Part shown: positions 2,037 through 24,951 of the stretch, in pieces
Layout of the letters: the number at the start of each line of letters is the position of its first letter
Position numbering within the stretch: position 1 is the first letter of the stretch
From: Polaribacter sp. Q13
Lineage (GTDB): Bacteria; Bacteroidota; Bacteroidia; Flavobacteriales; Flavobacteriaceae
Assembly (NCBI RefSeq): GCF_016858305.2
Contig: NZ_CP074436.1
Coordinates: 144,001 to 208,000, forward strand
Reading direction: 5' to 3'
DNA length: 64,000 nt
Translations under genes and position numbers: made by a program
Notes under the pieces: generated by a model
Database searches by the model: none
Told to the model about the DNA's origin: nothing
The model's input: the letters and a program-made list of their open reading frames with translations, nothing else

Positions 2037-2279
2037 AAATCAATATTGTATGAAAAATCAAAGTTAACATTTTCCTTTCAGCATTCCATAGAAATGAGCT
2101 GCTTTTTGGATGCGATTTTCTTTAATTATCATAATTAATTAGGTGATATTGAATTGAAAGTTGTTAAAATGGAATTATTAAATTCCTTGCACAATAATTT
2201 TATAAATAATTTGTGTAAATATTTGAAATTGGTGACTTTTTCTTTTTTTAATGCGTTGAACCTGCTTATTTTCGTATCA

Positions 2280-3293
2280 ATGAAATTTCTAAGATTTTTA
2301 TTATTTCCGTTTGCCATTATTTATGATGTGGTTACAAGCATTCGTAACTTCTTTTTTGAAGTAGGGGTTTTTAAACAAACTTCGTTTAAGATTCCAGTAA
2401 TTGTTGTTGGTAATTTAAGCGTTGGAGGTACGGGGAAAACACCACAAATAGAATATTTAATTCGCTTATTAAAAGTGTCTTTTAAAACAGCTGTTTTAAG
2501 TAGAGGGTATAAACGTAAAACAGAAGGATTTGTGTTGCTAAATAGTACGCATTCTGCAGAAGATGTTGGAGATGAACCTTTACAGTACTTTAAAAAGTTT
2601 AGTGCTATTAATGTAGCTGTAGATGCAAACAGGGCTGAAGGAATTATCAGATTAATTAATGAGAATTCTCCTGAGGTTATTTTATTAGATGATGCTTATC
2701 AGCATAGAAAAGTAAAAGGTAGTTTTTATATTTTGTTAACTAAATTTGATGATTTATTTACAGATGATTTTTTATTACCAACAGGAAATTTAAGAGAAAG
2801 TAGAAGTGGCGCAAAACGAGCAGATGTTATTTTAGTAACAAAATGCCCAATAAACTTATCTGAATCTTCTAAAAATAAAGTAGAAGAGAAGTTAAAGAAA
2901 TTCCATAAAAAGGTGTTTTTTACAACGATTTCTTATGATGATAAAACGGCAGGATCTGAATCTGTTTTGGTTGATGATTTAAAAAATTACGAGATTTTAT
3001 TAATTACTGGAATTGCAAATCCAACACCGCTTTTATCTTTTTTAAATGAAAAGAAAGTGAATTTTAAACATTTAAAATTCCCAGATCATCATCATTTTAC
3101 AGAGCATGAAATAGTTACGATTAAAGAGGAATACGCTGATTTAAAATCTTCTAAAAAACTTATTTTAACTACAGAAAAAGATTATGTTCGTTTAGAAAAT
3201 AGGGTGGAAGCACTTTCTTTTTTAGGAATACGAACTTCTTTTTTAGAGCAGCAAGAAGAGTTTAATACTATTATAAAAAGTCATATAAAATAA
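2280..3293 (+). CDS. lpxK: Tetraacyldisaccharide 4'-kinase
   Basis: A 337-aa inner-membrane enzyme that phosphorylates the 4' position of the lipid A disaccharide precursor. The protein starts 'MKFLRFLLFPFAIIYDVVTS', the usual LpxK membrane-anchoring helix. The P-loop 'GNLSVGGTGKTPQ' is at ~44-56, and 'SRGYKRKT' and 'DDAYQHRKV' follow. The reading frame is open upstream to 2154, but those 42 extra residues are not typical of LpxK and would place a second hydrophobic stretch before the anchor, so ATG 2280 is preferred. It stands alone and is followed directly by a strong terminator. Confidence 0.93.
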   Translation: MKFLRFLLFPFAIIYDVVTSIRNFFFEVGVFKQTSFKIPVIVVGNLSVGGTGKTPQIEYLIRLLKVSFKTAVLSRGYKRKTEGFVLLNSTHSAEDVGDEPLQYFKKFSAINVAVDANRAEGIIRLINENSPEVILLDDAYQHRKVKGSFYILLTKFDDLFTDDFLLPTGNLRESRSGAKRADVILVTKCPINLSESSKNKVEEKLKKFHKKVFFTTISYDDKTAGSESVLVDDLKNYEILLITGIANPTPLLSFLNEKKVNFKHLKFPDHHHFTEHEIVTIKEEYADLKSSKKLILTTEKDYVRLENRVEALSFLGIRTSFLEQQEEFNTIIKSHIK

Positions 3294-13156: not shown

Positions 13157-13720
13157 TTAAGATTTTCTGATAATCTCTGCTAATAATTTTCTTGCACGTA
13201 ACAATTTTACTTTTACGTTGTTCATTGGTTCGTTAATTTGCTCAGAAATTTCTTTATAAGATAATTCTTGAAAATAACGCAACTGTATTACTTCTTGGTA
13301 TTTAGGTTTTAATTGTTTAATATCTCTTAACAATTTTGCTAAATTCTGTTCGGTAATAATTTTGTCTTCAGGTGTAGGGCTTTCATCAACCACTAAATAC
13401 GCTTTCTCTTCTTGTTCTTTAGAGGTGTCTGCAGCTATCGAAATACTTTTTTTTCGAAGTAAATCAATATGAACATTTTTAGAAATGGCAATTAACCAAG
13501 TCTTAAAAACGTATTGTTCATTAAAAGTATTAATTTTATCAAAAGCTTTAGAAAAAGTTTGAATGGTAATATCTTCTGCTTCGTTTTCGCTTTTAGTTCT
13601 TTTTAATTGATAATTATAAACATCAGACCAAAAGGTATCTAATAAGTATCTAAATGCAGATTGATTTCCATTTTTAGCTTTAGAGATGTTTATTTGAAGT
13701 TTATTATCGTTTATTTCCAA
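13157..13720 (-). CDS. RNA polymerase sigma-70 family (ECF-type) factor
   Basis: A 187-aa sigma factor with regions 2 and 4 only. Region 2 (~20-90) has 'SDVYNYQLKRTKSENEAEDI' and 'FKTWLIAISKNVHIDLLRKK'. Region 4 (~125-185) has 'LKPKYQEVIQLRYFQELSYK' and then 'EISEQINEPMNNVKVKLLRA'. No anti-sigma gene is adjacent. It overlaps the upstream glycosyltransferase by 10 bp, so the two are translationally coupled. The sigma-lipA neighbourhood is one I recall in other Flavobacteriaceae, suggesting a housekeeping-type sigma rather than a specialised one. Its targets are unknown. Confidence 0.88.
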   Translation of the reverse strand: MEINDNKLQINISKAKNGNQSAFRYLLDTFWSDVYNYQLKRTKSENEAEDITIQTFSKAFDKINTFNEQYVFKTWLIAISKNVHIDLLRKKSISIAADTSKEQEEKAYLVVDESPTPEDKIITEQNLAKLLRDIKQLKPKYQEVIQLRYFQELSYKEISEQINEPMNNVKVKLLRARKLLAEIIRKS

Positions 13721-16083: not shown

Positions 16084-16665
16084 TTGAACGAAGAAACTTT
16101 TATAACTCAATTACAAGCCGGAAAACAAACTGCTTTTAGTCAATTAATAGATGATTATCAGCATAAAGTTTTTGGTACCTGTATTTCTTTTATCCCAAAT
16201 AAAGAAGATGCAGAAGATGTAGCACAAGAAGTTTTTTTAGAAGTTTTTAAATCAATTGGTAAATTTAAAGGAGATTCTAAGTTATCTACTTGGATTTATA
16301 AAATTACAACCAATAAGTGTTTAGAGTTTATCCGAAAAAAGAATACAAAAAAGAGATTTGCTTTTATGCAAACTATTTTAGGAAATGAAATACCATTAGA
16401 TAAGACGAGTTACTTTACAGAAGTAAATCATCCAGGAATTTTATTAGAGAATCAAGAAAAATCAGCAATTATTTTTAAGGCGATAAATACTTTGCCAGAA
16501 GCTCAAAGAGTGGTTTTTACCTTAGCAAAAATTGATGATAAAAGTTATCAAGAAATTGTAGAGATAACAGGTAAAAGCTTATCGTCTGTAGAGTCTTTAA
16601 TGTTTAGAGCAAAAAAAGGATTACAAGATAAATTAGAGAATTTTTATAAGAATGAAAACTCTTAA
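16084..16665 (+). CDS. ECF sigma factor, probable master of the local regulon
   Basis: A 193-aa ECF sigma factor. Region 2 shows 'DDYQHKVFGTCISFIPNKED' and 'AEDVAQEVFLEVFKSIGKF', followed by 'STWIYKITTNKCLEFIRKKN'. Region 4 shows 'INTLPEAQRVVFTLAKIDDK', 'SYQEIVEITGKSLSSVESLM' and 'FRAKKGLQDKL'. TTG 16084 is preferred because the upstream ATG 16054 lies inside the mscS terminator and adds an atypical hydrophobic stretch. It is followed by a one-helix protein and a CpxP/CnrX-like periplasmic protein, the layout of metal-sensing sigma systems such as CnrYXH. Four matching promoter copies downstream are likely its targets. It has no copy of that promoter itself. Confidence 0.88.
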   Translation: MNEETFITQLQAGKQTAFSQLIDDYQHKVFGTCISFIPNKEDAEDVAQEVFLEVFKSIGKFKGDSKLSTWIYKITTNKCLEFIRKKNTKKRFAFMQTILGNEIPLDKTSYFTEVNHPGILLENQEKSAIIFKAINTLPEAQRVVFTLAKIDDKSYQEIVEITGKSLSSVESLMFRAKKGLQDKLENFYKNENS

Positions 16666-16748: not shown

Positions 16749-16778
16749 CGCAAGTTTTTATAAATTATTGCATCTAAA
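16749..16778 (+). promoter_or_regulatory. ECF-type promoter P1
   Basis: CGCAAGTTTTT at 16749-16759 and CATCTAAA at 16771-16778, 22 bp from start to start. It lies 30 bp upstream of the one-helix protein at 16809. The same two boxes with exactly the same spacing recur at 19677, 21685 and 22859. I read them as -35 and -10 elements of one ECF sigma factor. Confidence 0.8.
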
Positions 16779-16808
16779 TAAATAGTAATTGTGTAAAGAA
16801 TAAGTAAA

Positions 16809-17132
16809 ATGGAAAATAAAAAATATATAAACCAGCAAGTAGAAGATACTTTTAAGTCATTAGATGCTATTGAAAAGGTAGATGTAAATCACTTTTTTAA
16901 GCATAAAATATTACAAAAGTTAGATGCAGAAAAAGTAGAAAAACAATCTGTTTTTTCTTGGTTTACACCCCAACTGCAATTGGCTACTTTAAGTGTTGTT
17001 TTGTTATTAAATTTAGGTACTATTTTTTATGCTTTTAATAATTCAGATAAAAGTGCCAATTCTAATTCTAGTATTGAAGCTTTTGCAAAAGAGTATTCAT
17101 TACAATCAGATAGCAGCTCAATTTTAAATTAA
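16809..17132 (+). CDS. Single-helix membrane protein, probable anti-sigma factor
   Basis: A 107-aa protein with a cytoplasmic-type N-terminal part ('QQVEDTFKSLDAIEKVDVNH', ~9-28; 'KILQKLDAEKVEKQSVF'), one membrane helix ('LATLSVVLLLNLGTIFYAF', ~58-76) and a polar outer tail. No zinc-binding HxxxC motif is seen, so it is not a ZAS-type anti-sigma. By position (sigma, one-helix protein, periplasmic CpxP/CnrX-like protein) it resembles CnrY. It is driven by P1, so if it is the anti-sigma, the sigma switches on its own inhibitor. It lies 5 bp before the next gene. Confidence 0.6.
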   Translation: MENKKYINQQVEDTFKSLDAIEKVDVNHFFKHKILQKLDAEKVEKQSVFSWFTPQLQLATLSVVLLLNLGTIFYAFNNSDKSANSNSSIEAFAKEYSLQSDSSSILN

Positions 17133-17137
17133 AAAAT

Positions 17138-17650
17138 ATGAAATCAAAATTACTTCCTATTTTATTATTTTTATTAATACTTTTAAATGGAGTGTTAATC
17201 TTTATGTTGGTAAAAAGACCTCATGAAATTCAAAGAAATAATCCGCAAGAAAATTTTTTGACAGATCAATTACAATTTTCTAAAACTCAAAAAGAAGACT
17301 TTAAAGCTTTAGATGCAGATCATAGAGATTTTATGATGAGTCTAGAAGATACTATAAAAGATCAAAAAGATGTTTTGTTTAGTTCTTTTAATAAAAAAGA
17401 CTTTAATATAGATTCATTAACGGTTAAAATAGGGCTTTTAGAAGCTAAAAAGGACGCTGAAGTTTTTTCTTTTTTTAATAAAGTAAGAGTCATTTGTACA
17501 ACGGAACAAGCAATAAAGTTTGATGAAATAATTAAAGAAGCAATAAGAGGAGGAGACCAAAGACCCCCAAATAATAGAAGAATGCCACCTCCTAGAAATG
17601 ATGGAAGAATGTTGCCTCATGGAAATGAAGGAATGCCACCTAGAAGATAA
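17138..17650 (+). CDS. Periplasmic CpxP/Spy/CnrX-like metal-sensor or chaperone protein
   Basis: A 170-aa protein anchored by one N-terminal helix ('LLPILLFLLILLNGVLIFML', ~5-24). The soluble part is helical and fits the LTxxQ/heavy-metal-sensor fold: 'TDQLQFSKTQKEDFKALDAD', 'HRDFMMSLEDTIKDQKDVLF', 'FFNKVRVICTTEQAIKFDEI'. The tail is Pro/Arg/Gly-rich ('RPPNNRRMPPPRNDGRM') with Met and His that could bind metal. Relatives (CnrX, ZraP, CpxP, Spy) sense metal or misfolded protein in the periplasm and signal through a membrane partner. It is cotranscribed with the one-helix protein. I infer sensor function from context. Confidence 0.75.
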   Translation: MKSKLLPILLFLLILLNGVLIFMLVKRPHEIQRNNPQENFLTDQLQFSKTQKEDFKALDADHRDFMMSLEDTIKDQKDVLFSSFNKKDFNIDSLTVKIGLLEAKKDAEVFSFFNKVRVICTTEQAIKFDEIIKEAIRGGDQRPPNNRRMPPPRNDGRMLPHGNEGMPPRR

Positions 17651-17668
17651 TATTTTAGAAAGTTATAA

Positions 17669-17710
17669 AAAAAGAAAATCCAAAGCAATTAAACTTTGGA
17701 TTTTCTTTTT
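17669..17710. terminator. Bidirectional intrinsic terminator
   Basis: A 17-bp perfect inverted repeat (17669-17685 with 17694-17710) with an 8-nt loop, A-rich on the left and T-rich on the right. It separates the convergent sensor and sulfatase genes. Confidence 0.9.
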
Positions 17711-17726
17711 GTTATTGAATTAGTTT

Positions 17727-19349
17727 CTAATAGGTTTTATTAAATTCCTTAAGAAGTTCTTTTACAATTTCAGGGTTCTGAGCGGCAATATTTATAGATT
17801 CATTCGGGTCATTTTTATGATCGTATAGTTCTATAAATAAAGGTGTATCCTTAGGTTTTCTTCTGTCTTTCCAAACTACAATTCTGTAATCATCAGTTCT
17901 CATAGCGTAGCCCATTACAAACTGCTCAAAAGTTTTTCTATTCCATTTATCTCCCATTTGAGCTTTAATTTTATTCTCTATTTTTACAATTAAAGGCTTA
18001 AAAAAACTAGTTCTAAAAGGAGGTGTAAATGGTCTTGCTGCCCATTCTCTTAAAGCAGGTGTTGGAAATAAACTAAAAGCAGGTTTTTGAGATTTGCTAC
18101 TTGGTCTTTTTAAGATTGGCACTAAACTTTTACCTTCTAAATTACTAGGTATTGATAAACCAGCTAAATCACATAGCGTAGGGTATAAATCAATTAACTC
18201 AACCAAAGCATTTGCTTTTTGGCCTTTTGTTTTATCAGTTACTCCAGGTGCAGAAATAATAAAAGGTACTCTGGTAGCTATTTCGTAATTAGTTGCTTTA
18301 CCCCAATATCCCATTTCTCCAAGATTAAACCCATGATCAGACCAAAAAACAATAATGGTGTTTTCATATTCTCCAGAATCTTTTAAGGCTTGAATCATTT
18401 TACCTACCTGAGCATCTACATAACTAATACAAGCATAATAACCATGACGTAATTTTTTTTGTAAAGGGATGCTAAAATCTCCAGTTTTAGGCATATCTGC
18501 AGAAACACGGACTTCTAAAGATTCAGATAAGCCCATCGCAGCACCATCTTTTGGAGGAGTTACTTGTGTAGCGATTGGTATATCCGCTTCATTATACATA
18601 TCCCAATATTTTTTTGGAGCAATAAAATCTAAATGAGGTTTTTTAAATCCTAAAGCTAAAAACCATGGTTTGTCATCTTTTTTAACCAGATCTTTTAAGG
18701 TTGCAATTGCTGAAAGCGTATTATATCCATCTTCATAAGTTTCATCTGGTACATCTGCATTTTCTGTAACAGGACCTTTTGCTAGCCAATTCTCACGAAT
18801 CATTTTTTCTCCATACTTAGCGTCTAAAGCTATTTTATTTTTTAAATACATTAATTGACTTTCAGGAAGTGCATAACCACCAGAAGTTTTTGGCACATTT
18901 GCATTTACCTTTACTTTTATAGGTTTTCTACTCCAAGACATTTCATCGTCTGTATATTGACCATGAAATACTTTTCCAAGATATACCGTTTCATATCCAT
19001 TTTCTTTAAAATGTTGAGGTAAAGTTACAATACCAGGTCTGTTGGCTCTAAAATCTTGAAATAAATCGATAACGTTAATCGTTTCTGGACGAGCACCTGT
19101 TAGAATACTTGCTCTAGAAGGACCACAAATAGCTTGTTGTACATAGGCTTTATTAAATTGAATACCTTCACTAGCCAACTTGTCTATGTTCGGTGATAAA
19201 ACAACATTAGAACCATAAGTTCCAAGTTCTGCCTTTAAATCATCAACAGCGATAAATAAGACATTTGGTTGTTTTTTCTTTTGAGCGAATCCCGTAAAGG
19301 AAACGAAGACGGATAATAAAAAAATACTTAATAAAAATTTGGTTTTCAT
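17727..19349 (-). CDS. Secreted sulfatase (S1 family, iduronate-2-sulfatase-like)
   Basis: A 540-aa exported sulfatase. A signal peptide ('LLSIFLLSVFVSFTGFAQ') leads to 'NVLFIAVDDLKAELGTYGS' (metal-binding D pair). The formylglycine motif is 'CGPSRASILTG' (C-x-P-S-R type), so it depends on an anaerobic or FGE-type maturase elsewhere. Further marks are 'KPWFLALGFKKPHLDF' and 'VFWSDHGFNLGEMGYWGKAT'. Such enzymes remove sulfate from algal polysaccharides or glycosaminoglycans, usually inside polysaccharide loci. Here no glycosidase or SusCD pair is adjacent. ATG 19349 gives the best signal peptide; in-frame ATGs at 19352 and 19373 are possible. It lies between parts of the ECF regulon but lacks the shared promoter. 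Confidence 0.9.
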   Translation of the reverse strand: MKTKFLLSIFLLSVFVSFTGFAQKKKQPNVLFIAVDDLKAELGTYGSNVVLSPNIDKLASEGIQFNKAYVQQAICGPSRASILTGARPETINVIDLFQDFRANRPGIVTLPQHFKENGYETVYLGKVFHGQYTDDEMSWSRKPIKVKVNANVPKTSGGYALPESQLMYLKNKIALDAKYGEKMIRENWLAKGPVTENADVPDETYEDGYNTLSAIATLKDLVKKDDKPWFLALGFKKPHLDFIAPKKYWDMYNEADIPIATQVTPPKDGAAMGLSESLEVRVSADMPKTGDFSIPLQKKLRHGYYACISYVDAQVGKMIQALKDSGEYENTIIVFWSDHGFNLGEMGYWGKATNYEIATRVPFIISAPGVTDKTKGQKANALVELIDLYPTLCDLAGLSIPSNLEGKSLVPILKRPSSKSQKPAFSLFPTPALREWAARPFTPPFRTSFFKPLIVKIENKIKAQMGDKWNRKTFEQFVMGYAMRTDDYRIVVWKDRRKPKDTPLFIELYDHKNDPNESINIAAQNPEIVKELLKEFNKTY

Positions 19350-19735
19350 CATGGAAATGTTTGAACAATTCATAGTATATATTAAAATAGTAATTAGAGT
19401 ATAAATTTTAAAAAAAAGGATGGTAAAAACTTCTTTAATATTACCTTAATATATAGGTATTTTACCCTCATTTAATTGGTGTAAAAATTAAGTTATTCAC
19501 ATAAAAAAATATTTTTTTTATGGAATTATAAATACAATATGCATTTATTTCACATACATATAATTTTTATAGTGTTTTTTGATAAAATAAATCAACGTAT
19601 TTATTTGTATTTAATTGATTTTTAGAGGTTTTTATAATTAGCTATTTATGTTAAATGTTAAAATAAAGTTAACGTGCGCAAGTTTTTAAAAAGAGTGACA
19701 TCTAAACTTTTATAAACTTAATAAATAGATTTAGG
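19350..19735. other. 386-bp AT-rich divergent intergenic region
   Basis: It separates the sulfatase from the EF-hand gene. Apart from promoter P2 at its right end, it is a low-complexity AT-rich sequence with short A and T runs. No open frame of note and no clear sulfatase promoter could be picked. Confidence 0.5.
19677..19706 (+). promoter_or_regulatory. ECF-type promoter P2
   Basis: CGCAAGTTTTT at 19677-19687 and CATCTAAA at 19699-19706, again 22 bp apart start to start. It lies 29 bp upstream of the EF-hand gene, in a common arrangement with P1, P3 and P4. Confidence 0.8.
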
Positions 19736-20029
19736 ATGAAAAAATCAACAAATAAAATTTTAGCAGTTATAATCGTTTCTTTAGGATTGTCTGCATCCAC
19801 TTTTGCACAGGCAGGTAATTCTGATGAGCGTCCAAAAGGACCTCCAACTTTTAAGCAACTTCTTAAAGATTTGGATGCAAATGAAGATGGTAAAATTTCT
19901 TTAAAAGAAGTTAAAGGGCCTTTAGCAAAAGATTTTAAAAAAATTGATACAGATGAAGATGGTTTTTTATCAGAAAAAGAAATAAAAAATGCACCGAAAC
20001 CAGAAAGAAAACAAAGACCAAGAAATTAA
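19736..20029 (+). CDS. Secreted EF-hand pair protein
   Basis: A 97-aa exported protein. The signal peptide ('KILAVIIVSLGLSASTFAQA') is followed by two EF-hand calcium loops: 'DANEDGKISLKE' (47-58) and 'DTDEDGFLSEKE' (71-82). Both keep the 1, 3, 5, 9 and 12 ligands and the central Gly. The link between them, 'VKGPLAKDFKKI', recurs nearly unchanged in the C-terminal EF-hand pair of the YHYH protein at 21735. It is the first gene behind P2 and lies 19 bp before CotH. It probably binds calcium in the periplasm; the partner is unknown. Confidence 0.85.
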   Translation: MKKSTNKILAVIIVSLGLSASTFAQAGNSDERPKGPPTFKQLLKDLDANEDGKISLKEVKGPLAKDFKKIDTDEDGFLSEKEIKNAPKPERKQRPRN

Positions 20030-20048
20030 AAATAAAAATCAATCAATT

Positions 20049-21500
20049 ATGAAAAATTTTAAAACTCAACTGTTCTCATTATTTATTATACTCATTATTT
20101 TTTCGTGTACGAGTGATGATGTTGCGGATGTTACAGATGTTGTAGAAGAAGATGATACTGAAGTTGCTATAGTAATAGATGATACAGATTTTGAAGCTAC
20201 AGATTGGACTAGCGAAACACATAGTAAAGATGTAGATCCTAATCTAGAGGAAGTGTTTGAAGATAATACGGTAAAAAGATTAGATCTTGTAATTACGGAA
20301 GAAAGATGGCAAACAATGTTAGATGATATGACAAATCTTTATGGAACATTTGGAGGGACTTCTACAGGTGCTGGAGGACCTGGAGCAGGTGGTCCAGGTG
20401 GTGCTACTGCAGGTATAGATGAAGACCCAATTTTTGTACCCGGAGAAGTTTTTTACGAAGGCAAAGAATGGTATCGTGTAGGTTTGCGTTTTAAGGGGAA
20501 TTCTAGTTTAAAATCTAGCTGGGAAGCAGGTATTTTAAAATTATCATTCAAATTAGATTTTGATGAATTTGAAGATGATTATCCGCAGATAAAAAATCAA
20601 CGTTTTTACGGAATTAAAAAGCTAAGTCTTAAAAACAATTATAATGATGCTTCTATGTTACGAGAAAAAGTAGCAGCAGATGTGTTTAGAAATGCTGGTT
20701 TAGCAGCATCTCACACCGCTTTTTATACGGTTTATGTAGATCATGGAGATGGACCTCAATATTTTGGATTGTACACTTTGGTAGAAGAAGTAGATGGTTC
20801 TGTGTTAGACACTCAATTTTCTGATGATAACGGAAATTTATACAAACCAGATGGTGATGCAGCTACTTTTGCAAGCGGTACTTTTGATGAAGATGAATAT
20901 GTAAAGAAAAATAACGAGGATGAAGCCGATTTCTCTGATGTACAAAGCTTGTTAACTGTTTTACATGATGGAACTAGAACTACAGACCCTGCAGCTTGGA
21001 GAGCAAGTTTAGATGCCGTTTTTGATACAGATGTATTCTTAAAATATTTAGCAGTAAATACCGTTATTCAAAATTGGGATACTTATGGTAGAATGACACA
21101 TAATTACTTCTTATATAATGATCCTGATACTAGTAAATTAACTTGGATTCCTTGGGATAATAATGAAGCTTTAGAAACTGGAAATGGACAAGGTGCTTTG
21201 TCTTTAAATTTCTCTGAATTAAATGCTGCACAATGGCCAATTATAGGGTATTTATATCAAGATGATGTTTACAAAGCAAAATATGATGCGTATGTAAAAG
21301 AAGTTGTAGAGAATTCATTTGAAGAAAGTACAATGCAAGCATTGTATACAAGCTATGCGGCTTTAGTGGAGGAATATGCAAATGCAGAAGTATCTGGCTA
21401 TACTTTTTTAAGTAACAGTTCAAGTTTTCAGTCTGCTATTAGTCAATTAAAAAGTCATGTTAGCTCTAGAAAAGCAGCAGTAGAAAGTTATTTAGATTAA
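20049..21500 (+). CDS. CotH-family lipoprotein (putative secretory protein kinase fold)
   Basis: A 483-aa lipoprotein (lipobox 'LFIILIIFSC', Cys ~18). An acidic linker and a Gly-rich insert ('GGPGAGGPGGA', ~105-125) precede the CotH domain. That domain shows 'GLRFKGNSSLKSSWEAGILK', 'KKLSLKNNYNDASMLREKVA' and 'YFGLYTLVEEVDGSVL', then 'FLKYLAVNTVIQNWDTYGR' and 'TWIPWDNNEAL' (the Asp corresponds to the active-site region). CotH of Bacillus phosphorylates spore coat proteins; bacterial relatives outside spores are uncharacterised. ATG 20049 is chosen because it opens the signal peptide, though the frame is open upstream. Cotranscribed with the EF-hand gene. Confidence 0.88.
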   Translation: MKNFKTQLFSLFIILIIFSCTSDDVADVTDVVEEDDTEVAIVIDDTDFEATDWTSETHSKDVDPNLEEVFEDNTVKRLDLVITEERWQTMLDDMTNLYGTFGGTSTGAGGPGAGGPGGATAGIDEDPIFVPGEVFYEGKEWYRVGLRFKGNSSLKSSWEAGILKLSFKLDFDEFEDDYPQIKNQRFYGIKKLSLKNNYNDASMLREKVAADVFRNAGLAASHTAFYTVYVDHGDGPQYFGLYTLVEEVDGSVLDTQFSDDNGNLYKPDGDAATFASGTFDEDEYVKKNNEDEADFSDVQSLLTVLHDGTRTTDPAAWRASLDAVFDTDVFLKYLAVNTVIQNWDTYGRMTHNYFLYNDPDTSKLTWIPWDNNEALETGNGQGALSLNFSELNAAQWPIIGYLYQDDVYKAKYDAYVKEVVENSFEESTMQALYTSYAALVEEYANAEVSGYTFLSNSSSFQSAISQLKSHVSSRKAAVESYLD

Positions 21501-21531
21501 ATAAAAAAGTATTTGAATTTGGTTAATAATG

Positions 21532-21563
21532 AAAAGCTTCGTGAGCAATTGCGAGGCTTTTTT
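21532..21563 (+). terminator. Intrinsic terminator after CotH
   Basis: A stem of 8-9 bp (left arm 21533-21541, right arm starting 21552) with a G-T pair, followed by seven T. It ends the EF-hand-CotH unit, so the next gene depends on P3. Confidence 0.75.
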
Positions 21564-21684
21564 ATGTTAAATCAACAACCTAGATAAGGATAGCTAGTAT
21601 GCAGCCAAAACAAATACTTTTCATTTCGAATCAAGCCTCGGTGAATTAAACCTTGGCTATCACACTGCGATTAAAGTTAAAAAA

Positions 21685-21714
21685 CGCAAGTTTTTATCAA
21701 ATAAGACATCTAAA
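21685..21714 (+). promoter_or_regulatory. ECF-type promoter P3
   Basis: CGCAAGTTTTT at 21685-21695 and CATCTAAA at 21707-21714, spacing 22 bp start to start. It lies 20 bp upstream of the YHYH/EF-hand gene. The bases after the -10 box ('CTTTTATAAA') are the same as after P2. Confidence 0.8.
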
Positions 21715-21734
21715 CTTTTATAAAACCATTTAAG

Positions 21735-22847
21735 ATGATAAAAAAATATTTTATTCCAATAATAGCGAGCGTTCTTTTATTAGGATGTAAAAGTAAAGTG
21801 ACAAATAGTGCACTCATTCATAAAGATGAAACAGAAAGTCATACAGATGTAAAAACAGATTATTTTGATTCCTATGTTTTAAGTAGTCCCATTTATGGAA
21901 CAGAAACAGTAGTAACCGTAAAAGGAGGTGAACGTAAAATGGTAACAAATGCATTGCCAAATCATAGAACGGGAGCTTTTCCAAGAAAAGGAAATCCGAA
22001 TACAATTTCTGCTCAAGACAAAGCATACACATTTACTTTAAATCCAAAATATACAGGAAAACCGACTTGGGTTAGAGAGCCAGGTATTGCTTTAAATGGT
22101 GTAAAATTTGAACCCGGAACCGCAGAAGTGGTGGTTTGTGAAACAGGTGAGAATTATAGAGTAGAAGCTTTTCAAGACAAGATAGATTTAGGTCTCGATT
22201 TTAACCATGCACATGTGCAACCTACAGGAGAATATCATTATCATGGTACTCCAACCTCTGTAATTGAAGAGTTTGATGCAGGAAAAGATTTGGTACACGT
22301 TGGTTTTGCACATGATGGATTTCCTATTTATTATTCTAAAAGTAGCGTTTATAAACCAAGTTATAAATTATTAGAGGGCACCCGAGAAGGAGAAGATTGT
22401 GTTTATACAAATCCTAAGCAAACCATAAAAATGGATGTGAACGATGATCATGATGGAACTTTTGGTTCTGATTTTGAGTATATCGTGGGTTCAGGAGATT
22501 TAGATGAATGTAACGGTATTACAATTGACGGTAAGTACATGTATTTAGTAACAAATGAGTTTCCGTATGTAAGCCGTTGTTTAATGGGAGAAGTAAAACA
22601 AGAAGAGCGCCGAGGACCATCTAGAAATGGAAATGAAGACAGAAATGGTGGAGCGCGTAAAAACTTTAATGAGTTGTTAGAAATGATGGATACAGACAAA
22701 GACGGTAAATTATCTAAAACCGAAGTAAAAGGTCCGTTAAAACTACAGTTTTCTAAAGTTGATACCAATAAAGACGGCTTTTTAACGAAAGAGGAATTGG
22801 GAAATGTTGGGCAAAGACGAGAACAAAGATTACTTAAACACAATTAA
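21735..22847 (+). CDS. YHYH-domain lipoprotein with C-terminal EF-hand pair
   Basis: A 370-aa lipoprotein (lipobox 'ASVLLLGC'). The YHYH domain (~60-285) contains 'GVKFEPGTAEV', 'DFNHAHVQPTGEYHYHGTP' and 'HVGFAHDGFPIYYSK'. The His-rich segments suggest a metal site, but the domain's function is not established. After a basic linker (~285-305) come two EF-hand loops, 'DTDKDGKLSKTE' and 'DTNKDGFLTKEE', joined by 'VKGPLKLQFSKV', close to the free EF-hand protein at 19736. Domain fusion links the two genes functionally. Transcribed from P3. Confidence 0.85.
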   Translation: MIKKYFIPIIASVLLLGCKSKVTNSALIHKDETESHTDVKTDYFDSYVLSSPIYGTETVVTVKGGERKMVTNALPNHRTGAFPRKGNPNTISAQDKAYTFTLNPKYTGKPTWVREPGIALNGVKFEPGTAEVVVCETGENYRVEAFQDKIDLGLDFNHAHVQPTGEYHYHGTPTSVIEEFDAGKDLVHVGFAHDGFPIYYSKSSVYKPSYKLLEGTREGEDCVYTNPKQTIKMDVNDDHDGTFGSDFEYIVGSGDLDECNGITIDGKYMYLVTNEFPYVSRCLMGEVKQEERRGPSRNGNEDRNGGARKNFNELLEMMDTDKDGKLSKTEVKGPLKLQFSKVDTNKDGFLTKEELGNVGQRREQRLLKHN

Positions 22848-22858
22848 AAAAAATAAAA

Positions 22859-22888
22859 CGCAAGTTTTGTTTTAATTAAGCATCTAAA
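22859..22888 (+). promoter_or_regulatory. ECF-type promoter P4
   Basis: CGCAAGTTTTG at 22859-22869 and CATCTAAA at 22881-22888, spacing 22 bp start to start. It lies 27 bp upstream of the second YHYH gene. It would drive the YHYH-MORN-SCO1 operon. Confidence 0.78.
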
Positions 22889-22915: not shown

Positions 22916-23710
22916 ATGAAAAACCAATTTATCAAAACCACAATACTTTTAGCAATACTTTTTACAGGAATAGTTTCTTGTAGCTCAGATGCAGATGATA
23001 ACCTTACGGAAGAAGTAGAAGAAGTAGTGGAACAAGAAGAAACAACAGGTACATTACATAATGCTTTTGCAGAGTTTGATGTAGACGAAACAACAATTTA
23101 TCTTTCAGGATCAAATGTAGTAATAGAAACTACAGGTTTACCAAATCACAAAACCCCTTATTGGAGCGAAAGTCACCCATTATATATAGCTCCAACAGTT
23201 ACAAGTGAAGCTCAAATGACACCAACTAGAATTGATACTTCTAATAGAGATAATTCAAGTACTTTAACGGTCTCTCAAAATGCTAGTTTAGCAAGTGCAA
23301 CAACAGCAACACAATTAGGTGCAATTGGTATTGCTGTAAGTGGTGCTTATCTTTATAATGATCAAGAAGGAAATGGTGCTTTAGATGCTGCAGCAGGAAG
23401 TTTAGATTATTCGGGTGCACATATTGGCCCAACAGATTATCACTATCATTTAGAGCCTTTAGCTTTCTCTGATGACGATGATAAATTAAATGGTATTATT
23501 TCTGATGGTTTTTTTATCTATGGAAGAAAATGTAATTCTACAGGAACCTATCCTACAGATTTAGATACTTCTGGCGGTCATACAAGTACAACACAACATA
23601 CAACAATAGCAGAATATCATTATCATATTATTAACGAATTATATACAACAACAGGAAGATATCTTGTTTTTCCTGGCCCATATAAAGGAACACCTAATGC
23701 AATTAGATAA
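22916..23710 (+). CDS. YHYH-domain lipoprotein
   Basis: A 264-aa lipoprotein (lipobox 'FTGIVSC', Cys ~22) with an acidic linker, then a YHYH domain. The signature appears twice: 'GPTDYHYHLEP' (~178-188) and 'IAEYHYHIIN' (~231-240). Also seen are 'AIGIAVSGAYLYNDQEGNGA' and 'NGIISDGFFIYGRK', which recur in the family. It is only distantly related to the YHYH protein at 21735. It ends inside the start of the MORN gene (14-bp overlap). Function unknown; repeated His residues suggest metal binding. Confidence 0.85.
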   Translation: MKNQFIKTTILLAILFTGIVSCSSDADDNLTEEVEEVVEQEETTGTLHNAFAEFDVDETTIYLSGSNVVIETTGLPNHKTPYWSESHPLYIAPTVTSEAQMTPTRIDTSNRDNSSTLTVSQNASLASATTATQLGAIGIAVSGAYLYNDQEGNGALDAAAGSLDYSGAHIGPTDYHYHLEPLAFSDDDDKLNGIISDGFFIYGRKCNSTGTYPTDLDTSGGHTSTTQHTTIAEYHYHIINELYTTTGRYLVFPGPYKGTPNAIR

Positions 23711-24305
23711 ATATATTTTTTTAGTATTTATATGTGTTTTTGGTAGTTGTAATAAACAGACTACCAAAAACATATCTATTACGGATACTATAGAAATTGT
23801 AAACGTTCTTATTCCCAAAGAACAAGTAATATTGAATCCTCTAAAAGGACAATGGTTTTACAAAGACCAACCTTTTAATGGCTATGCTATTACTTATAAT
23901 AAGAATGAAGTTTTATCTGAAAAAACTGGTTTTTTTAATGGAAAAAGGCAAGGGGAAATGTTTAAATATTTTGATGATGGAACTATAAAAATGGAAGCAC
24001 ATTATGTTCAAAATAAATTACATGGTTTAAAGTTGCATTATTTTAAAAATGGTAATATTTATTTAGAATCTAATTATGTCAACGGAAAAAAGCATGGAAT
24101 TCAAAAAACATGGTTTATAAACGGGCAATTAGCAAAACGGAAAAATTTAACAGACGGAAAAGAAAATGGTTTGCAACAAGCTTGGTTGCAAAACGGAAAA
24201 ATTTACGTTAATTATGAAGCTAAAAATGGAAGAACTTTTGGCTTACAAAGAGCAAATTTATGTTACCAATTAAAAGATGAAAAAGTTGCAGAAAAGAGTA
24301 AGTAG
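23697..24305 (+). CDS. MORN/YwqK-like repeat lipoprotein
   Basis: A 202-aa lipoprotein (lipobox 'ICVFGSC'). Four to five MORN-like (toxin_YwqK) repeats follow: 'NGKRQGEMFKYFDDGTIKME', 'NKLHGLKLHYFKNGNIYLES', 'NGKKHGIQKTWFINGQLAKR', 'DGKENGLQQAWLQNGKIYVN'. These beta-hairpin repeats form an extended scaffold. Despite the common YwqK 'antitoxin' label, no toxin is present, so a structural or binding role is likelier. ATG 23697 overlaps the YHYH gene by 14 bp, and the gene itself overlaps SCO1 by 29 bp: three genes are tightly coupled. Confidence 0.8.
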   Translation: MQLDKYIFLVFICVFGSCNKQTTKNISITDTIEIVNVLIPKEQVILNPLKGQWFYKDQPFNGYAITYNKNEVLSEKTGFFNGKRQGEMFKYFDDGTIKMEAHYVQNKLHGLKLHYFKNGNIYLESNYVNGKKHGIQKTWFINGQLAKRKNLTDGKENGLQQAWLQNGKIYVNYEAKNGRTFGLQRANLCYQLKDEKVAEKSK

Positions 24306-24951
24306 ATTTTTTTTATTATTGATTATAGTAATATCAATCAGTTGTAAAAATACAAAGAAAGAAACCGTTTTAAGTAGAGTAGATGCTTTGCCTTATTATA
24401 ACGGAGCTTCTTTTACTCCAAAATGGATAGATGCTAATAGTGATGAATTAAAATCTTTTCACACCATTCCAGAATTTAGTTTAACAGATCAGGATGGAGA
24501 AAATATCACTCAGAAAACATTTGAGAATAAAATTTATGTTGCAGATTTTTTCTTTACTACTTGTCCTGGTATTTGTCCAATGATGACAAAAAACATGACA
24601 CTTGTACAAGATGCTTTTAAAGATGATACTAGTGTTTTAATGTTATCTCATTCAGTAACTCCTTCTATCGATTCTGTAGCGCAATTAAAAAAATATGCAA
24701 TAGATAAAAATATTGGTGAGAATTGGCATTTGGTTACAGGTGATAAAAAAGAAATTTACGATTTAGGTAGACAGTCTTATTTTGTTGAAGAAGACTTAGG
24801 AGAACCAAAAGGAATCGATGATTTTTTACATACGGAGAACTTTATTCTTATCGATAAGCAAAAACACATTAGAGGTATTTATAACGGTTTAAATAAAAAT
24901 TCTGTAAAACAATTAATTGCTGATATTAAAACGCTGCAATTAGAGCAGTAA
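24277..24951 (+). CDS. SCO1/SenC/PrrC family copper protein
   Basis: A 224-aa lipoprotein (Cys ~23) with a thioredoxin fold. The copper ligands are intact: 'TTCPGICPMM' (C96, C100) and 'FLHTENFILID' (H185). SCO proteins deliver copper or reduce cysteines for the Cu-A centre of cytochrome c oxidase, but non-oxidase copper roles are known. No oxidase gene is near; instead it ends an operon of YHYH and MORN lipoproteins behind P4. This is the best clue that the regulon handles copper or redox stress. Confidence 0.9.
   Translation: MKKLQKRVSRFFLLLIIVISISCKNTKKETVLSRVDALPYYNGASFTPKWIDANSDELKSFHTIPEFSLTDQDGENITQKTFENKIYVADFFFTTCPGICPMMTKNMTLVQDAFKDDTSVLMLSHSVTPSIDSVAQLKKYAIDKNIGENWHLVTGDKKEIYDLGRQSYFVEEDLGEPKGIDDFLHTENFILIDKQKHIRGIYNGLNKNSVKQLIADIKTLQLEQ

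Follow-up and report, generated by a model that had tools for sequence, protein, structure and literature searches.

The closest described counterpart of the system considered here is CnrYXH of Cupriavidus metallidurans, for which the accessible text of the published accounts states that CnrX, on binding metal, is believed to switch CnrY and thereby free the sigma factor CnrH, and that CnrH-dependent promoters precede cnrY and cnrC (PMC4598750, PMC9045368). We analysed a gene cluster in a 64,000-nt stretch of the genome of Polaribacter sp. Q13 (contig NZ_CP074436.1, positions 144,001 to 208,000; hereafter the window, to which coordinates refer). As far as those accounts go, it resembles CnrYXH in that an extracytoplasmic function (ECF) sigma factor, whose gene starts at 16084, a small membrane-bound anti-sigma candidate and a CnrX-type periplasmic protein are encoded together, with putative sigma-dependent promoters before both the anti-sigma-sensor gene pair and the effector genes. 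However, the gene order here is sigma, anti-sigma, sensor, and the putative targets encode EF-hand, CotH, YHYH, MORN and SCO1 proteins rather than an efflux pump. Moreover, the profile of the anti-sigma candidate recovers no CnrY chain at E <= 10, a comparison of this protein with the PDB gave no useful match, and the nickel ligands of CnrX are not evident. Because a Pfam scan of nine cluster proteins gave no match to an efflux family, the system is not classed as CnrYXH. Within the same phylum, the ECF factors SigW-1 and SigH-1 of Bacteroides thetaiotaomicron likewise use two-box (-30/-10) promoters that differ from the housekeeping type (TTTG/TAnnTTTG), but the available text gives an arylsulfatase operon and stringent-response genes as their regulons, names a TGTT-like -10 element for SigW-1 sites with a motif reported as not significant, and contains no mention of a CnrX-type sensor (PMC12596196, PMC7366714).

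Our results indicate that four two-block sites in the cluster (P1-P4; Table 1) are very probably promoters of the sigma factor encoded at 16084, serving feedback as well as units for envelope proteins. As an earlier note, made from the letters of the window, had reported, the motif pair starts at 16749, 19677, 21685 and 22859; the pattern RCAAGTTTT-N12-CATCTAAA matches all four copies without mismatch, each on the plus strand. The constant start-to-start distance of 22 bp described there was borne out, with a 12-base spacer in 4/4 copies and CATCTAAA beginning 22 bases from the start of CGCAAG, and its figure of 20-30 bp to the start codon agrees with gaps of 30, 29, 20 and 27 nt between the -10 end and the ATG at P1, P2, P3 and P4, respectively. 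No other copy had been noticed in the window, and none was found at up to 3 mismatches (shuffles: mean 0.18, maximum 1). In the complete genome (4,423,854 bases, one contig), whose scanning the note had suggested, P1-P4 are the only perfect copies, and each stands before a gene start. With up to 3 mismatches, the genome yields 20 matches as against 19 for a reversed-pattern control, so that the matches other than P1-P4 are background. Allowing spacers of 9-16 bases added no copy anywhere in the genome, and a fifth genomic copy was rejected, both 2-mismatch matches lying antisense inside open frames (398 and 588 aa). A looser pattern gave at least 120 stretches in viral contigs, 80 of which were examined; being too loose, its matches were taken as chance and left unused.

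The assignment of the four sites to the adjacent sigma factor, also made in the earlier note, is supported by comparison with relatives, in which the motif follows the sigma orthologue both family-wide and genus-wide. Among 397 genomes of the family, in most of which the 8 best sigma candidates were scored, the exact motif occurs in 40 of the 48 with a close sigma orthologue (at least 59% identity; G195, at 47%, was left out) but in only 2 of the 349 without one (G350 and G428, one match each), the reversed-pattern control matching in 2/397. Seven of the eight sigma-bearing genomes devoid of an exact copy have one with 1-2 mismatches directly after the sigma gene, and one sigma-bearing genome, G487, shows no motif within 3 mismatches. 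In the genus, at up to 1 mismatch, all 27 sigma-bearing genomes have the motif (90 matches), compared with 13 of the 70 sigma-less genomes (13 matches); the latter matches are at background level, and the control produced 26 matches in the 97 genomes by our own table count. Fisher's test gives p = 2e-44 for the family and 2e-14 for the genus, uncorrected for ancestry.

ECF promoters such as P1-P4 might instead be read by a different ECF factor, for instance the one encoded nearby on the minus strand at 13157-13720. The genome holds 18 matches to the 16084 sigma factor at E <= 0.001, and a related shape, TGTAAGTTTT-n-CGTCTTA, precedes a small-RNA-like element (see below) in sigma-less genomes too, suggesting that other factors probably read promoters of this kind. 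However, the neighbouring gene, with which the co-occurrence check among other ECF factors was made, is core in the genus (93/97 genomes) and for that reason cannot explain the distribution of a motif that exceeds background in the 27 genomes with a 16084 orthologue; it was thus rejected as the reader. In addition, a site lies directly after a 16084-type sigma gene in 27 of the 47 distant loci described below. Overall, a different reader appears improbable.

The sites are also placed as promoters of the 16084 factor would be. We surveyed 170 nt before gene starts, at up to 2 mismatches, in 56 loci, comprising the window, 22 loci of the genus (L201-L220, L238 and L239), picked partly for motif matches, and 33 named loci (L303-L333, L355 and L370), picked by sigma alone from the best 80 of 526. 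A site precedes 53/54 anti-sigma genes, 33/41 EF-hand orthologues, 29/55 orthologues of YHYH protein 2 (YHYH2), 9/18 YHYH-EF orthologues, 11/54 sigma genes and 5/28 CotH genes; the corresponding counts are 10/625 for other open reading frames (ORFs) and 0/43 for other sigma genes. None was found before the unit-interior genes (0/55 sensor, 0/56 MORN and 0/55 SCO1 genes, 0/166 together) or before sulfatase genes (0/9). An unsupervised count of 8-mers over the 90 nt upstream of anti-sigma genes ranked CAAGTTTT first (51/54), and the first winner not overlapping it was CATCTAAA (39/54; maximum in one shuffle, 8), with all 45 CAAGT/ATCTAA pairs lying 21 bases apart. Conversely, a same-strand ORF starts within 250 nt of 62 of the 64 sites with up to 1 mismatch in the genus and window and of 83 of the 93 in the named loci.

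For YHYH2, matches were obtained in 43 genomes of the genus (24 sigma-bearing, 19 sigma-less), 30 of which had loci examined (22 and 8, respectively). The homologue has a site in 15 of these 22 sigma-bearing genomes, among whose loci L403 offered only 49 nt upstream, versus none of the 8 sigma-less ones, four of which (G052, G059, G066 and G041) are incomplete assemblies where the absence of sigma is uncertain. In G059, where no sigma orthologue was found, a decayed motif with 4 mismatches occupies the normal place 63 nt before YHYH2 (L385), which may mean that the site decayed once the sigma factor had been lost, or may be due to the incomplete assembly.

Operators of another transcription factor and processed elements of 5' untranslated RNA likewise sit close to start codons. 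Nevertheless, it is very unlikely that the motif represents such an element rather than a -35/-10 pair, given its two blocks at fixed spacing around a free AT-rich spacer, the -10-like TC core that is kept in distant Bacteroidota while the adjoining bases vary, and its co-occurrence with the 16084 sigma gene (one other regulator gene was compared). Similarly, although the four copies cluster within 6.2 kb, it is hardly credible that they are mobile-element remnants or recent duplicates of one upstream region, as they agree mainly in the two blocks while spacers and flanks differ, no repeat borders surround the blocks in the sequence, and in several genera different genes are preceded by this layout.

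With P1-P4 read as promoters of the 16084 factor, the question arises of whether this factor also controls its own gene. The earlier note had found the sigma gene to be without a copy. This statement holds for the genus, where none of the 11 genomes examined (of 27) has a site before sigma, but not outside it, since 14 of the 29 other family members examined (of 47) do have one, mostly beginning about 60 nt upstream of sigma. Because of these 14 relatives, positive self-control is, judging from the sites, common across the family but lacking here.

The product of the 16084 gene has the layout of an ECF factor, with regions 2 and 4 only and a length of about 200 aa (Sigma70_r2 at residues 21-87 and Sigma70_r4_2 at residues 130-178 of 193; no Pfam match to region 3). 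By its position after sigma, in an order that is kept in relatives, the second gene is a candidate anti-sigma gene. The flavobacterial protein is devoid of a zinc-finger part, unlike its distant counterparts, in which zf-HC2 was present in 6 of the 7 proteins tested, those six having been chosen for their zinc-finger look. The product of the third gene is likely CnrX-like in fold: its profile matches Spy/CnrX/CpxP and its best structural rows in Foldseek and VIA-align are CnrX, both of which back the 'CnrX-like' label of the earlier note. In its alignment, His62 is kept in 40/50 and Cys120 in 45/50 sequences; position 112 is His in 31/50 and Phe in the window protein.

Table 1. Proposed regulator, promoters and target genes in the window.
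Feature	Position	Strand	Basis and remarks
ECF sigma gene, proposed regulator	16084..16665	+	TTG start, 193 aa; Pfam Sigma70_r2 1.7e-16, Sigma70_r4_2 3.9e-15
Putative promoter P1	16749-16778	+	exact motif; before anti-sigma and sensor genes
Anti-sigma candidate, 107 aa	16809..17132	+	position after sigma; single transmembrane helix as judged by eye
CnrX-like membrane-anchored periplasmic protein, candidate sensor, 170 aa	17138..17650	+	profile and fold
Putative promoter P2	19677-19706	+	exact motif; before EF-hand-CotH unit
EF-hand protein, 97 aa	19736..20029	+	Pfam EF-hand; signal-like start by eye
CotH kinase-family protein	20049..21500	+	Pfam CotH 3.1e-72; lipoprotein-like start by eye
Putative promoter P3	21685-21714	+	exact motif; before YHYH-EF-hand gene
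YHYH protein with C-terminal EF-hands	21735..22847	+	Pfam YHYH 4.6e-52, EF-hand
Putative promoter P4	22859-22888	+	exact motif; before YHYH-MORN-SCO1 unit
YHYH protein 2	22916..23710	+	Pfam YHYH 5.3e-09
MORN-variant repeat protein	23697..24305	+	Pfam MORN_2; gene order kept in many relatives
SCO1/SenC thioredoxin-fold protein	24277..24951	+	Pfam SCO1-SenC 8e-27; gene order kept in many relatives

Among the products of the putative target units, YHYH protein 2 contains two YHYH motifs that are invariant across 28 aligned sequences; its predicted structure has a mean pLDDT (predicted local distance difference test) of 60. The cluster also encloses a sulfatase gene on the opposite strand (17727-19373), which is without the motif and is close to the cluster in only some relatives.

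Named relatives bearing the triad include Polaribacter, Tamlana, Mariniflexile, Hyunsoonleella, Winogradskyella, Algibacter, Lacinutrix, Psychroserpens, Maribacter and Kordia. At greater distance, we considered 47 loci with 41-52% sigma identity from Chitinophagaceae, Bacteroidales, a member of the Cytophagales and others, including a few from Chlorobi, Ignavibacteria and KSB1. As in the window, a homologous sigma gene is followed there by a counterpart of the anti-sigma gene (with zf-HC2 in 6 of the 7 tested) and then by a gene for a CnrX-type protein (PF13801 Metal_resist where tested), the latter in 41/47 loci by our own reading, and several loci share the promoter type after sigma; the genes that follow differ from those found here. 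The distant sites just after sigma were identified with RCAAGTTTT-N12-NRTCWAA at up to 2 mismatches, a -10 form that was chosen post hoc, and in 28/47 loci at most 1% of shuffles were equally good. Across the phylum, the -10 element drifts from CATCTAAA to CGTCAAA or GTGTCAWA, with the -35 element remaining constant.

Judged by the sites, regulon membership varies among relatives. In these genomes, copies of the motif also stand before VTC-DUF4956-DUF2490 units and before the genes of a MauG-type peroxidase, of CotH-LTD proteins with secretion tails, of further YHYH proteins and of a Cthe_2159 protein. Another such gene encodes a protein of 190-200 aa that looks Spy-like by eye. In streptococci and clostridia, CotH, a polyphosphate polymerase and DUF4956 have been described beside Pel polysaccharide genes, according to the accessible part of the source (PMC7112168). 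One named locus, L304, contains two near-identical perfect motifs, 143 bases apart, at about 17983 and 18126 on the plus strand; no ORF of 70 aa starts within 250 nt, and the target could be a small protein or an RNA.

From sequence, we could establish the sites and their specificity to genomes with the sigma gene, as well as the structure of the units and the likely fold of the sensor. In the mechanism that we propose, the 107-aa membrane protein would hold the sigma factor in the resting state, with the CnrX-like periplasmic protein setting the state of the anti-sigma factor. A periplasmic signal would then release sigma and thereby cause induction, and free sigma, together with core polymerase, would read RCAAGTTTT-N12-CATCTAAA. 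Transcription from P1 would raise the levels of anti-sigma factor and sensor, providing negative feedback, whereas transcription from P2-P4 would supply the secreted or envelope units encoding EF-hand-CotH, YHYH-EF-hand and YHYH-MORN-SCO1. Our guess is that the signal is a periplasmic metal or redox cue, because of the CnrX likeness, the conserved His62 and Cys120 columns, the presence of SCO1 and the YHYH proteins, which are rich in histidine and keep invariant histidines. It is possible, though somewhat less likely than not, that marine Flavobacteriaceae recruited a Bacteroidota-wide module, made up of the ECF sigma factor, an anti-sigma factor that in this branch has shed its zinc finger and a CnrX-like sensor in which nickel ligands are not evident, for a previously undescribed envelope response via YHYH, EF-hand and CotH proteins (in relatives also VTC/DUF4956/DUF2490, a MauG-type peroxidase and the protein that is Spy-like by eye). 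Such a module might respond to a metal or thiol-redox cue in the periplasm and bring to the surface proteins that bind metal or calcium as well as phosphorylated ones.

YHYH proteins, secreted EF-hand proteins and bacterial CotH recur in marine Flavobacteriaceae, with roles hardly assigned so far. With a promoter, its sigma factor and a sensor defined, these proteins would share one regulator, through which the signal could be sought directly. Moreover, the motif would represent an ECF promoter for Bacteroidota and illustrate how the -10 element of a module may shift while its -35 element stays. In the literature searched, which lay mostly outside subscription papers, we found no description of YHYH together with CotH or of a Flavobacteriaceae ECF regulon with a promoter motif. 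Searches for a periplasmic heavy metal sensor with a sigma factor, and for ECF, CnrX and anti-sigma in Bacteroidetes, returned no description of such a system in the accessible text of the sources. An earlier prediction of this ECF group, for example in the 2021 ECF reclassification, is possible.

Outside the window, the genome contains a conserved element of ~80 nt on the minus strand (C1:3710845-3710923; L417), which is also found in L413-L427 and is probably a small RNA. It consists of a 5' hairpin, a UUCUUUUUCAUAGCAAUUUUC linker and an intrinsic terminator (fold z -6.8), lies behind a Pif1-like helicase gene wherever the neighbour was viewed (four genomes) and, in this genome, carries the ECF-like promoter TGTAAGTTTT-n-CGTCTTA. 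Six copies scanned against Rfam matched no family at their own place. At E <= 0.01, a model of the element matched in 96 of the 97 genomes of the genus; many of these matches are probably due to chance, since short hairpin-terminators score. This two-hairpin element was itself considered as a member of the regulon, based on a CGTCTAAA site variant before it in 4 genomes, but was dropped on account of high-scoring copies in sigma-less genomes too (for example, G053 and G009). In one relative, a Flavo-1 RNA (RF01705, 54.7 bits) adjoins the transfer-messenger RNA (L423, positions 2236-2318, minus strand).
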